64,000 nt of DNA from Gammaproteobacteria bacterium (GTDB lineage: Bacteria; Pseudomonadota; Gammaproteobacteria; Steroidobacterales; Woeseiaceae), in assembly GCA_013151645.1 (NCBI GenBank), contig JAADHU010000005.1:62001-126000 (forward strand). Reading direction: 5' to 3'. The notes under the pieces are model-generated. The model had not been told where the DNA came from. It worked only from the letters and a program-made list of their open reading frames with translations, and did not search any database. The first letter of the stretch is position 1; every line of letters starts with the position of its first letter. This document shows, in pieces, positions 41,721 through 57,650 of the stretch. The translations under genes and the position numbers were made by a program.

Positions 41721-43109
41721 TTATCGGCCTGGCCGGGTAACACCGGGCAGGTTATCCAGTTGTTGCGCCAGAAAATTGCTGGTCGATGACAGCTGCCCAA
41801 GCAGCGAATCAAGCGCATTGAAGCGTCGTAACAAGCGTGTCTCAAGCGAAGCCAATCGCTCGCTAAGGGCCTCCCGTTGCTCGCCAAACCCTTTGACCTG
41901 ATCATTCAGTCCTTTCGTCCTGGCTTCCAGCACGCCATCGGTATCGAGGTACCGCTCGACCAGGTCGAAAGCGCGTACTGCGAAACCATCGGTGGTCGCA
42001 AACAGTTGTCCAAACTTGGAGAAATCATCCGCCAATACCGTCGCTAGTTGAGGCTCGTCGACGGACAGCGTGCCATCGAGCTGCAATTCGATACCAATCT
42101 CGGACAGGGTTGAAAAATTCGCATCAAGGTCGGTCACAGTGGTGCTGAATTCCCGCCGAATCTGGTCGCGAATATTGCGCAGCGTAGTGTCGCCAAGCAG
42201 CGGCCCCGCCACTTTCGTTTCCGCGTCGAAGTTGCTTAACTGATCGAATGTTTCAATCAGTTGATTGTAGCTTTCGACGAATTTCGTCACCGTAGTGCTC
42301 GCCGCCGCGGTATCGTTCACCACACTAAGCGAAGTCGTTTGTCCGGGAGCGGACCCGGCCAGGCTAATCGTGATTCCCTGTATCGCGCCCGCAATCGTAT
42401 TCGTGTCACTCGCGACATCAAGGCCGTCTATGCGAATGAGCGCATCTTGCGCCGCAATGGATTCCGTTAGCGCATTGAGCCCATTACCAGGATCGTACTC
42501 AAGGCTGGCAAGACCACCATCGCCACCCGTCTGGGTGATCGTTATGGTGTTAGCGAGACCCGTTTTATCGCCTGAAAGAATCAGGTAACTCCCGGCATCG
42601 GCGTTGACAATGGATGCCAACACGCCCTGATTATCGGTCGCCGCATTGATCGCATCGCGAATGCCGGCCAGCGTATTGTTGCCCGCCGTGACATCAATAT
42701 CGAATGAGTTGGCGCCTACGCCGATTTGCAGAGTGCCGGTGCCGATTGCCGTATCCTGATCGACGAATGAACCGGAAGTCAGTTTTTGTGCCTGTGCGAC
42801 CTGCAGGATTTCGATCGAATAGCTGGCCGGCACAGCGCTACCGGAAACGCTCGCGGTGAACAGGCTTTCGTCACCGGACACACCCTGGCGTACCAGGAAC
42901 TTGTCGATGTCCCGCATGACATCAAGCGTGTCGCGAAATTCGGAGAGCGACGCTGTCAGGTTGCCATAGGCGGACAGTTTGAACTGCGCCCGTGCCTCCT
43001 GTAGTCCGAGTCTTGTCTCCACTGGTCGGGCCTCCGCAGCCACTAGCTGTTGCACGATGCCGGCGACGTCCAGTCCAGAGCCAATTCCTGGCGATGTGAT
43101 GTTAGCCAT
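41721..43109 (-). CDS. fliD: Filament cap protein FliD
   Basis: 462 residues. The N-terminus ITSPGIGSGLDVAGIVQQLVAAEARPVETRL is the FliD signature; the variable middle is rich in Thr/Asn/Gly, and the C-terminal coiled-coil part has FDQLSNFDAETKVAGPLLGDTTLRNIRDQIRR and a final region ending in SNFLAQQLDNLP. It forms the pentameric cap that folds flagellin at the tip. First gene of fliD-fliS-fliT. Confidence 0.95.
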   Translation of the reverse strand: MANITSPGIGSGLDVAGIVQQLVAAEARPVETRLGLQEARAQFKLSAYGNLTASLSEFRDTLDVMRDIDKFLVRQGVSGDESLFTASVSGSAVPASYSIEILQVAQAQKLTSGSFVDQDTAIGTGTLQIGVGANSFDIDVTAGNNTLAGIRDAINAATDNQGVLASIVNADAGSYLILSGDKTGLANTITITQTGGDGGLASLEYDPGNGLNALTESIAAQDALIRIDGLDVASDTNTIAGAIQGITISLAGSAPGQTTSLSVVNDTAAASTTVTKFVESYNQLIETFDQLSNFDAETKVAGPLLGDTTLRNIRDQIRREFSTTVTDLDANFSTLSEIGIELQLDGTLSVDEPQLATVLADDFSKFGQLFATTDGFAVRAFDLVERYLDTDGVLEARTKGLNDQVKGFGEQREALSERLASLETRLLRRFNALDSLLGQLSSTSNFLAQQLDNLPGVTRPGR

Positions 43110-43643: not shown

Positions 43644-44780
43644 TTACTGCAACAGACTCAGCGCCAACTGCGGCTGAGTATTCGCCTGCGACAGAACTGA
43701 TATGCCGGCCTGCTGCAGGATCTGAGCCTTGGTCAATGCCGCGGTTTCAGAAGCGAAATCCGCATCCAGGATTCGACCCCGTGAAGCCGAGAGATTCTCA
43801 CTGACGGTTTGCAGGTTGATGATCGTTGACTCGAAACGGTTCTGGATAGCACCCAGGTTACCGCGCAGACTGTTCACGTCGGTTAGCGCCGAGTCGATTC
43901 GAGCAATGGCGAAGTTCGCGCCAGAGACCGTGTCAACACCAACTCCAGCGAGCGTGGTTGCTGTGGCAGCGGTTTCTTCAGCCGTGACCAACGTGTCGAG
44001 GCCCAGCGTATTGGCTGCACCTGCGGTCGTTTCAGCCGCCGTAACAGCGCCTACACTGGACAGGATTTGCAGCTGATCGCTGGCATTTACGAACGCCGAT
44101 ACACCGCTGATATTGGCGGTGTTAATCGTATCGGCCGCCTGCTGTACAGACGAACCGGCCGCAACGTCAACGTTACCCAGTGCGCCGCCCGCATTCGTGA
44201 ACGCGACGTTCACGAAATCCGTATCGGTTGCCAAATCGAACGCTGCGCCCGTCACGGTGTTGACCGTGCCGATAGCGGCCGCGGTAACATTCGTCGTCAG
44301 GCTCACAGAAATGGTCTCGCCAACGTTGGCGCCCACCTGGAACGTTGCGGTACCGAACGAGCCGTCAAGGACCTTAACGCCGTTGAAGTTAGTCTGTTTC
44401 GCAATACGATCAACCTCTGCGATACGTTCTGTTACTTCTGCGTTCAGCGCAGCACGGTCAGACGCAGAGTTCGTTGCGTTAACCGATTGTACGGCCAGTT
44501 CACGAATCCGCTGCAGGTTGTTGGTCAACTCACCCAACGCGCTTTCAGCCGTCTGTGCCAGTGAAATGCCATCACTGGCGTTTCGTGAAGCCTGGTTCAA
44601 ACCACGGATCTGTGTAGTGAAACGCTCGGAAATTGCGAGACCTGCCGCATCATCCTTTGCGCTATTAATTCGCAGGCCGGTAGACAGTCTTTCAAGTGAC
44701 TGGTTTAGCAAACCTTGCGAACGATTCAAGTTACGTTGTGCGTTAAGCGAAGCAACGTTGGTATTGATCGAAAGTGCCAT
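43644..44780 (-). CDS. fliC: Flagellin
   Basis: 378 residues. N-terminal D0/D1 MALSINTNVASLNAQRNLNRSQ to IRELAVQSVNATNSASDRAALNAEV, a short Ala/Thr/Val-rich exposed domain (about 160-280) and C-terminal FAIARIDSALTDVNSLRGNLGAIQNRFEST to SVLSQANTQPQLALSLLQ. The only flagellin gene in the window. AGGAG precedes the ATG; its leader from a sigma28 promoter contains GGA motifs that could bind a CsrA-type protein. Confidence 0.97.
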   Translation of the reverse strand: MALSINTNVASLNAQRNLNRSQGLLNQSLERLSTGLRINSAKDDAAGLAISERFTTQIRGLNQASRNASDGISLAQTAESALGELTNNLQRIRELAVQSVNATNSASDRAALNAEVTERIAEVDRIAKQTNFNGVKVLDGSFGTATFQVGANVGETISVSLTTNVTAAAIGTVNTVTGAAFDLATDTDFVNVAFTNAGGALGNVDVAAGSSVQQAADTINTANISGVSAFVNASDQLQILSSVGAVTAAETTAGAANTLGLDTLVTAEETAATATTLAGVGVDTVSGANFAIARIDSALTDVNSLRGNLGAIQNRFESTIINLQTVSENLSASRGRILDADFASETAALTKAQILQQAGISVLSQANTQPQLALSLLQ

Positions 44781-44877
44781 TGTTAATCTCCTAATTAAAA
44801 ATAACCGGTCTGCTCTAGCCGCCGGAAGTCTTTAGTCTGGGGTCGCGAAATCCATTCAAGACCACCGTACATGGAAG

Positions 44878-56349: not shown

Positions 56350-56376
56350 TAAAGTTGCGGCCATCTTGGCCGATAT
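56350..56376 (+). promoter_or_regulatory. Sigma28 (FliA) promoter of flgM
   Basis: TAAA (56350-56353), exactly 15 bases, GCCGATAT (56369-56376). One mismatch to consensus. Lets FliA drive its own inhibitor. Gives a leader of about 30 bases. Confidence 0.85.
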
Positions 56377-56413
56377 GAGGGTCTGGCAACAATGATTGTT
56401 GAGGTTGGAGATT

Positions 56414-56743
56414 ATGTCTAACAGTATAAACCCGGTGGATCAGGGCATGCACGGAAAGATTGGCGACAAGATCGGTGAAACCGCGACCACGCGCAAGCTG
56501 GACGCTGCGTCACCTGCTGCGAGCGAAGGCGCACAAGGCAAGGCCGGCGCCAGTGACACGGTGCAGCTGACCGATAGCGCTAAGTTGCTGGAACGCCTGG
56601 AGAAAACCCTGGCTGAAACACCGGCTATCGACAGCGCGAGAATCGACGCCGTTCGTGCCGACATTGAGAGTGGAAACTATGCCATCAATGCCGACAAGAT
56701 AGCCGATGCATTGTTGCGCACGGATCTGGAGCTCAGTGAATGA
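56414..56743 (+). CDS. flgM: Anti-sigma28 factor FlgM
   Basis: 109 residues from the ATG at 56414 (GGTTGGAG upstream). Low-complexity N-terminus, then the FlgM C-terminal core: DTVQLTDSAKLLERLEKTLAETPAIDSARIDAVRADIESGNYAINADKIADALLRTDLEL. Binds FliA until secreted through the finished hook. ATGA overlap with flgN. Confidence 0.93.
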   Translation: MSNSINPVDQGMHGKIGDKIGETATTRKLDAASPAASEGAQGKAGASDTVQLTDSAKLLERLEKTLAETPAIDSARIDAVRADIESGNYAINADKIADALLRTDLELSE

Positions 56744-57231
56744 GCGACGAATCTACCCACGAGACTCGCGACCGGATCGTCAGGATACTGACTGAAAGTG
56801 TCGATTGCGCCCTCGGTCTGAAAGAAACACTGGTCGATGAACGGGATGCGCTGGAACGTCGCGATACAATTTCCCTGAACACGGCTGCGGTGTCCAAAGC
56901 CGCTCTGATTCGCAAACTCGCCGGTTTGAACGAAAGCCGCGGCAAGATCAGCGAACAGGCAGGATTCGGCCGCGGCACGGAAACGATGGAAGACCTGGCC
57001 GCATGGTGTGACGAGGATTCGCTGGTCAGCAATTGCTGGCGCCGTTTCCGCGAAATCGCGAGCGAGTGCGATCTTCTTAACAAGACCAACGGTGCCATTA
57101 TTCTCCTGCGACGCCAACAGATTCTCGATGGTTTGTCTCTTTTACGTGGCAACCAGAACAGCACCAGCACCTATACCCCAACCGGCGCGGCAGTGAATTC
57201 CTTTGCGGGCCGGGAACTCACCGAAGCCTGA
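56740..57231 (+). CDS. flgN: FlgK/FlgL chaperone FlgN
   Basis: 163 residues, helical N-terminal two-thirds (RIVRILTESVDCALGLKETLVDERDALERRDTISLNTAAVSKAALIRKLAGLNESR) as in FlgN, with a C-terminal hydrophilic tail that includes LLRGNQNSTSTYTPTGA, the segment type bound by FlhA. Coupled to flgM by ATGA. Confidence 0.9.
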   Translation: MSDESTHETRDRIVRILTESVDCALGLKETLVDERDALERRDTISLNTAAVSKAALIRKLAGLNESRGKISEQAGFGRGTETMEDLAAWCDEDSLVSNCWRRFREIASECDLLNKTNGAIILLRRQQILDGLSLLRGNQNSTSTYTPTGAAVNSFAGRELTEA

Positions 57232-57260: not shown

Positions 57261-57464
57261 ATGTTAATTGTAAGCCGACGCGACGCAGAATCGATCGTGA
57301 TTCGCCCGGGAACTGACATCGATCCAAATATGACGCTGGCGGACCTGTTCCGCGGCGGCCCCATAGAGATCACCATATTCTCAGCGGGCGCGAACCGCGT
57401 AAAAATGGGTGTGCAGGCCCCGGAACAACTGGCCATCTGGCGCAAGAGTCCCGCTGCTGCTTAA
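57261..57464 (+). CDS. RsmN/RsmF-like CsrA-family RNA-binding protein
   Basis: 67 residues. Both RNA-contact strands of CsrA are present: N-terminal MLIVSRRDAESIVI and C-terminal GVQAPEQLAIWR, with Arg61 in the place of the essential C-terminal Arg. Between them an insert of about 18 residues (PGTDIDPNMTLADLFRGGP, about 16-34) interrupts the usual fold, as in the RsmN/RsmF variant of P. aeruginosa, where an inserted helix rearranges the dimer. AGGGAG precedes the ATG. It lies 29 bases after flgN, so it is probably co-transcribed with flgM-flgN. It may control translation of flagellar mRNAs. Confidence 0.8.
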   Translation: MLIVSRRDAESIVIRPGTDIDPNMTLADLFRGGPIEITIFSAGANRVKMGVQAPEQLAIWRKSPAAA

Positions 57465-57492: not shown

Positions 57493-57564
57493 AAAAAGGG
57501 CTTGGGCCGAATGAACTCGAAAAGGGGCTGCTTTTTTTGAGTCCATTCGGCCCAAGCCCTTTTT
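57493..57564. terminator. Long bidirectional terminator
   Basis: A perfect 21-bp inverted repeat (57493-57513 with 57544-57564) rich in A on one flank and T on the other. The 30-base loop can itself pair (ACTCGAAAAG with CTTTTTTTGAGT). A second strong hairpin than usual for a simple terminator. Ends the flgMN-csrA-like transcript. Confidence 0.85.
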
Positions 57565-57589: not shown

Positions 57590-57618
57590 TTGACATAAAG
57601 CCATGATGCCCCTATTGT
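57590..57618 (+). promoter_or_regulatory. Sigma70 promoter of the phasin gene
   Basis: TTGACA (57590-57595), 17 bases, TATTGT (57613-57618). Consensus -35 box. The start would be near 57625, in the middle of the palindrome. Confidence 0.75.
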
Positions 57619-57650
57619 GCGCTGCAACATATGTTGCACCGCACAATAGG
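57611..57650. promoter_or_regulatory. 40-bp palindromic operator over the phasin -10 box and leader
   Basis: Two 20-base arms (57611-57630 and 57631-57650) complementary at 19 of 20 positions. The centre TGCAACATATGTTGCA is a perfect 16-bp palindrome. It spans the -10 box, the start site and part of the ribosome site, so it should work as a repressor site on DNA: the mRNA starts within it and cannot form the full hairpin. A PhaR-type granule-sensing repressor would fit the gene but is inference. Confidence 0.65.

Follow-up and report, generated by a model that had tools for sequence, protein, structure and literature searches.

The window, by which we mean the whole 64,000-nucleotide stretch analyzed here, contains flgM and flgN directly followed by a small open reading frame (ORF) that begins with ATG 29 nt past the flgN stop codon and that we call csrV as a working name (Table 1). 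The earlier note on this DNA had described the ORF as a CsrA variant behind flgM and flgN, and the two genes directly upstream do match PF04316 and PF05130. Between runs of A and T 3' of csrV lies a very stable hairpin, probably a (bidirectional) terminator that ends flgM-flgN-csrV. Our terminator scan, which is limited to 20 pairs and to loops of 3 to 8, missed this structure. The sole Rfam match at E <= 1 between positions 43000 and 64000 was a sub-threshold microRNA on the same hairpin (29 bits versus 73).

Table 1. Positions, strands, and identifying evidence for the flgM-flgN-csrV operon and the fliC region in the window
Feature	Position	Strand	Evidence or remark
fliC, major flagellin, candidate target	43644..44780	-	PF00669 match G000:C5:106358-106768, E 1.2e-46
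HP1, hairpin close to the 5' end of the fliC leader; apical loop with AUGGA at 44851-44855	44839..44866	-	
fliC sigma28-type promoter, TCAAG...CCGATAA	44878..44904	-	TAAAG in many relatives
sigma28-type promoter upstream of flgM, TAAAG-N14-GCCGATA	56350..56375	+	Sequence motif
flgM, anti-sigma28 factor, first operon gene	56414..56743	+	PF04316, 57 bits
flgN, export chaperone for hook-filament junction proteins, directly upstream of csrV	56740..57231	+	PF05130, 80 bits
csrV (working name), inserted-segment CsrA/Rsm protein, 67 aa	57261..57464	+	ORF, profile, alignment
Very stable hairpin 3' of csrV	57493..57564	+	MFE -54.9 kcal/mol, 91 nt

The csrV product matches the Pfam CsrA family (PF02599) over residues 1 to 62 with 43 bits (gathering score 27), but reaches 35 bits where the NCBIfam csrA equivalog cut-offs (TIGR00202 / NF002469) stand at 70 to 73. 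Because its score falls so far under these cut-offs, we regard CsrV as a member of the CsrA family but not as an ordinary CsrA. Like canonical CsrA/RsmA, it has the beta1 and beta5 RNA-binding strands, both of which had been named at the outset and are present in the ORF. Unlike the canonical proteins, it has an insert between beta2 and beta3, spanning about residues 18 to 34, and a short C terminus, with 6 residues past Arg61 where the canonical rows are longer. Measured as the aligned gap against canonical CsrA, the insert comprises 17 residues; thus, the inserted architecture claimed in the earlier note stands, whereas its length of ~18 residues does not.

One scan of genome contigs yielded 26 orthologous csrV loci, 19 of them from Woeseiaceae or Woeseia and the others from Gammaproteobacteria or Proteobacteria. 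In the 23 loci that were aligned with the window copy, csrV is 72 to 85% identical to it. By tblastn segments, identity to the window's genes is 74 to 85% for csrV across the 26 loci, compared with 34 to 58% for FlgN (25 loci having FlgN) and 43 to 71% for FlgM, so that csrV is better conserved than either of its operon partners. In an alignment of the window copy with 23 loci (A1; L047, L050, and L054 were omitted as equal or nearly equal to kept rows), 36 of the 67 positions are invariant. This degree of conservation, together with the identity among orthologous loci, argues that the ORF is a true gene and not a chance occurrence. The residues invariant in all 24 rows include Ile3, Ser5, Arg6, and Arg61, which correspond to RsmN Ile5, Ser7, Arg8, and Arg62, as well as the Gly33-Pro34-Ile35 that follows the inserted segment. 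Arg61 is the RNA-contact arginine, so that the conserved Arg on which the initial reading depended is indeed kept in the orthologs.

Among solved structures, the best PDB chains retrieved by phmmer were RsmF (4k59, E 0.0068) and RsmN (4kji, E 0.0085), which align with CsrV residues 2 to 61, insert included; the matching stretches of the best canonical CsrA chains start only at CsrV residue 29 or 32. An AlphaFold2 monomer model built with the 24 orthologues predicts two strands, a short helix, and three further strands. The confidence of this model is middling (pLDDT 70, pTM 0.44; pLDDT about 81 for residues 21 to 30), and the helix that it predicts inside the insert is short, covering residues 26 to 29 only. 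All four best PDB matches of the model in Foldseek were RsmF or RsmN (prob 1.00, TM 0.64 to 0.65, E 0.015 to 0.065), and VIA-align superposed it on the same proteins with Z 6.4 to 6.5 and rmsd 2.5 to 2.9 over 61 aligned residues, Z values that fall below the tool's caution level of 8. No canonical CsrA chain appeared among the VIA-align or Foldseek matches, an absence that according to the tool's note is not evidence. By sequence and predicted fold, the nearest solved relatives of CsrV are RsmF/RsmN of P. aeruginosa; the RsmN/RsmF-like architecture recognized in the earlier note is thus borne out, and the RsmF-like fold is supported, without being proven, by a monomer model of middling quality.

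RsmN/RsmF (PDB 4k59, 4kji, 4krw) share with CsrV an insert of 16 to 17 residues between beta2 and beta3, the conserved RNA-contact Arg, Ser, and Ile, and a short C terminus, at an identity of 31 to 33%. The Gly-Ile that closes the inserted helix in all ten RsmN sequences of Morris et al. (PMC3791407) is Gly-Pro-Ile in CsrV. The two also differ in the RsmN Arg8-Glu64 intrasubunit salt bridge, whose Glu is not conserved in the CsrV orthologs: in the 24 rows, Arg6 never changes, while position 63 is variable (Ser, Gly, Asn, Asp, Lys, or other residues).

We examined how csrV is distributed among 107 genomes of its presumed family, Woeseiaceae. The gene was found in 33 of them (E <= 1e-6) and flagellin in 35; 32 genomes have both, 1 has csrV only (G470, in which flagellin gave no match), 3 have flagellin only, and 71 have neither. 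Flagellin therefore accompanies csrV in 32/33 genomes but occurs in 3/74 genomes that lack it (Fisher p 1e-22, without correction for relatedness), and by these counts CsrV is flagellum-bound in its distribution. A survey of flgN neighbors in the relatives, an idea of the earlier note, placed csrV directly after flgN in 31 of the 33 genomes and in 25 of the 26 scanned loci. In the sister genomes G462 and G464, csrV lies away from flgN, and G445 carries a displaced copy in addition to the flgN-linked one. Inspection by eye of ~400 bases after flgN revealed no csrV remnant in G032, G465, G462, or G464. Strongly diverged flgN-linked csrV genes are found in G481 (L198) and G430 (L200), the latter without the SRR of strand beta1. 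There is also a second type of inserted-segment paralogue (L063, L061, L197, and L196, in G006, G015, G463, and G462, respectively), which gives weaker matches, is not flgN linked, and is less conserved than csrV.

A TAAAG...(G/T)(C/T)CGA site occurs upstream of flgM in the window and in 25/25 flgN-linked scanned loci. Among the flgN-linked family genomes, a set that overlaps these 25 loci, 29/31 have a sigma28-type site at this place. Of the two misses, G015 is on a contig that starts inside the promoter site and still has CCGATAA, and G007 has TAAAG...GCCGCTAA, with the same CCGCTAA also upstream of its fliC. All three displaced csrV copies have TAAAG...GCCGATA, located 34, 57, and 162 nt upstream of where translation starts. 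Flanking similarity common to G462 and G464 suggests that these two copies probably go back to one move and the G445 copy to a separate one. The promoters before flgM and before all displaced copies constitute our strongest evidence; on the basis of these motifs, the assignment of csrV to the late (sigma28-dependent) class is well supported, as would follow from the shared sigma28 promoter proposed in the earlier note.

The leader of fliC is a candidate site of action for CsrV. We fetched 35 fliC leaders, of which 34 were usable (G492 was dropped because its leader meets a contig end). Many of them carry, just past the sigma28 -10 element, the hairpin HP1, GGUGGUC-uugaAUGGAUuucgc-GGCC, with AUGGA in its apical loop. 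The GGA in the ribosome site, named in the earlier note, is present, and the AUGGA of the HP1 loop is an additional one that had not been singled out before. In an alignment of 25 of the 34 leaders (A2; the most divergent nine, G006, G015, G007, G464, G465, G462, G013, G479, and G023, were left out), the drawn stems have 88% paired cells, versus 15 to 43% when slid. Covariation is weak: the score was equaled by 32/500 shuffles and the "further pair types" by 424/500, and the RNAalifold covariation term on A2 is 0.08, about zero. Whole-leader minimum-energy folds contain HP1 in 11 of the 18 UGAAUGGA leaders, those of G482, G010, G493, G478, G463, G445, and G005 lacking it. Folded in isolation, the five HP1s tested exceed shuffles in stability by a modest margin (z -1.1 to -2.4). 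Another conserved hairpin, CCGG-CGGC...GC-AGA-CCGG, is located between HP1 and the ribosome site (window 44781-44839, minus strand); it is found in most fliC leaders (L160-L194), including those of csrV-less genomes.

An ANGGA in the loop of a leader hairpin is found in 19/27 genomes with an intact flgN-linked csrV, the window included, namely, 18 leaders of the UGAAUGGA form and that of G007, where ANGGA sits in a different hairpin. It is found in 0/7 genomes in which csrV is absent (G032, G465, G013), moved (G462, G464), or diverged (G430, G481). We counted G479 and G023 as lacking the motif, since the GGA that they carry in another hairpin loop is not part of an ANGGA; in G032, which has no csrV, an ANGGA near the 5' end of the leader is at the base of the hairpin, outside the loop. 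The raw Fisher p for this pattern is 0.0012, with rows that are related and a pattern that was seen before testing. An Mk simulation of loop versus gene, which covered six of the seven comparison genomes, gave about 0.066 (305/4643 draws). With only two independent csrV changes to work on, the independent-pairs test is unable to attain 0.05. In G013, csrV may be missing only from the assembly, since flgN was not found there either. Given two independent gene changes and a pattern noticed before the test, we consider the association between the loop motif and csrV suggestive; a strong claim of coevolution was dropped, as it is not significant once phylogeny is corrected for.

An action of CsrV on the fliC leader is plausible in light of these sequences. 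We lean, with modest confidence, toward a scenario in which CsrV is a dedicated late-flagellar protein of Woeseiaceae, of the RsmN/RsmF type, that has kept its RNA-contact residues and restrains flagellin through the fliC leader. Export of FlgM would free sigma28, and CsrV would then be made. By extrapolation from RsmN, it would dimerize in the fashion of RsmF and recognize ANGGA. In the step of which we are least sure, CsrV would bind the AUGGA loop of HP1 in the fliC mRNA, with its second site holding the GGA of the ribosome site; we propose this pair of sites because of the anatomy of the fliC leader. Once bound, CsrV might restrain flagellin translation, or it might protect the 5' end of the mRNA, and flagellin output would then match export. 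There are examples of both modes, since CsrA represses the Bacillus hag mRNA by bridging to the ribosome site and protects the flhDC message through a 5'-end site. The sign of the CsrV effect is thus uncertain, and we favor a brake on flagellin.

A brake of this kind would correspond to the one that CsrA exerts on Bacillus flagellin, but without FliW. As in the CsrA-FliW homeostasis of Bacillus and Campylobacter, a CsrA-family protein would act on the flagellin mRNA via GGA sites. In contrast to that system, CsrV represents another CsrA subfamily, its gene stands behind a sigma28-type promoter, and the family genomes yielded no FliW. In agreement with the earlier note, which had not seen FliW at the locus, our search found none in the window's genome and none in the family (0/107 genomes, E <= 0.001), and the same search recovered the FliW proteins of Bacillus subtilis and Thermotoga maritima as a control.

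Alternatively, CsrV could be a sigma28-dependent RNA binder whose main targets lie beyond the filament gene. Completion of the flagellum would then be coupled to a wider regulon, such as metabolism, biofilm, or second messengers, and the fliC hairpin would serve something else or canonical CsrA. We judge this the lesser possibility, though one to be taken seriously. It accommodates the 8/27 intact-gene genomes without a loop ANGGA, among them the single-contig G006, and it agrees with the report that RsmN binds 503 transcripts (PMC6061880). Moreover, canonical csrA co-occurs with csrV in 25 of the 33 csrV genomes and could be the real ligand of the hairpin. Yet the loop motif is gone in both lineages in which csrV is absent, moved, or diverged, and canonical CsrA persists in 6/7 of those genomes, which mildly favors csrV over canonical CsrA as the partner of the motif. 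Nor is the motif unique to fliC: STGAATGGAWWTCGNG, with at most one mismatch, occurs at 83 places in 25 genomes, 15 in fliC leaders and 68 outside them, versus 12 for a reversed-pattern control. Further targets could account for this surplus, as could a coding bias. For the window's genome, the four places outside the fliC leader (4 examined of the 68) are all inside long ORFs and not in leaders, contrary to what a wider regulon would suggest.

Canonical csrA was found by the PF02599 search neither in the window's genome (G000) nor in its six-contig relative G009; the weak CsrA matches of G000, L002 and L003, score 16.2 and 14.4 bits, far below the CsrA cut-off. Unlike csrV, canonical csrA adjoins alaS in G006 and G010, and in G000 alaS runs off the end of contig C14, which it reaches at base 5, so that just positions 1-311 of 847 are present. 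For this reason, the missing csrA of G000 most likely reflects an assembly gap, and the idea that CsrV is the only CsrA of this genome was rejected. In G009 and G479, the alaS matches are partial and below the alaS cut-off.

Another scenario, which we think unlikely, holds that CsrV acts mainly via protein contacts. FlgN (or FlgM) would bind it in the style of CesT and CsrA, and FlgN freed by the export of FlgK and FlgL would release CsrV from mRNA. That csrV adjoins flgN in 31/33 genomes and that FliW was found in none of the 107 would fit this scenario, for which there are precedents: the secretion chaperone CesT is reported to bind CsrA (PMC5864733), and FlgN, according to a review, also promotes FlgM translation (PMC8036289). 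The argument, however, rests on adjacency, and in the sisters G462 and G464 csrV is away from flgN. The CesT-CsrA analogy and the effect of FlgN on FlgM translation lead us to name FlgN as a speculative candidate for a CsrV antagonist. It is similarly doubtful that there is a FliW-less checkpoint in which FlgN, translated from the same mRNA as CsrV and freed by FlgK/FlgL export, strips CsrV from HP1 and the ribosome site of the fliC mRNA; if true, completion of the hook-filament junction would switch on flagellin translation.

Inserted-segment CsrAs also occur outside the bacterial family that carries csrV, in at least 16 genomes from 11 families of an evenly drawn 369-genome class sample (matches to the csrV profile over its whole length at E <= 1e-8, with no in-frame stops; G168 was dropped for such stops). 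At most one of these families can be that of Pseudomonas, and the count is a lower bound because RsmN itself is only weakly similar to the csrV profile. Linkage to flgN is not a general property of inserted-segment CsrAs, as none of the 12 FlgN-bearing outside genomes, several of them fragmented assemblies, has one beside FlgN. While this would be expected if csrV were a general Rsm paralogue found in a flagellar operon by chance, as a transcriptional hitch-hiker, we find that explanation very improbable, given that the three displaced copies, which probably stem from two moves, all have a sigma28-type promoter and that csrV tracks flagellin across the family. In G042, which belongs to the same order, two similar inserted-segment CsrA genes (L070 and L071) are on different contigs, with no FlgN beside them.

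To place RsmN relative to these proteins, we built a tree without the insert columns (55 columns), in which the inserted-type proteins, csrV, and RsmN lie opposite eight canonical CsrAs. The branch that groups the inserted-type proteins with RsmN has support of 76/92 and is not starred, and a tree that excludes RsmN from this group withstands rejection (p-AU 0.236). When the insert was kept, a quick FastTree put RsmN among the canonical CsrAs. It is possible, then, that the inserted type of RsmN arose separately from the csrV-type proteins.

Inserted-segment CsrAs themselves are already known, and what is new in CsrV is the apparent dedication of an RsmF-like protein to the flagellum. RsmN-like proteins are widespread within Pseudomonas, where RsmN overlaps RsmA in global regulation (PMC3791407, PMC7366521). 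The rsmN gene is located between PA5183 and PA5184 (PMC3791407), whereas csrV is part of a flagellar operon that a sigma28-type promoter precedes. Thus, an architecture known from Pseudomonas global regulators appears here to be tied to one machine, and we found no published account of its linkage to flgM-flgN in the open-access literature. CsrV follows flagellin, retains a sigma28-type promoter even after moving, and comes with a definite candidate site on an RNA. In so narrow a setting, it becomes testable what the inserted segment is for. CsrV may also be another way of achieving flagellin homeostasis in the absence of FliW.

The surroundings of csrV contain two further sequence elements. 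In the flgM leader, GCAACAATGATTGTTGAGG (window 56386-56404, plus strand) is nearly invariant across L034-L055 and L057-L059, with small departures. It consists of a CAAC/GTTG stem with AUG in the loop; this AUG opens a short reading frame that does not share the flgM frame in the window and that ends at different places in different loci. The element is possibly a translational control element of flgM. At the start of a phasin-like gene, there is a near-perfect 38-bp palindrome (window 57612-57649), CTATTGTGCG...CGCACAATAG with TGCAACATATGTTGCA at its center, which we take to resemble a PhaR-type operator. A motif resembling this palindrome was found after flgN in G462.
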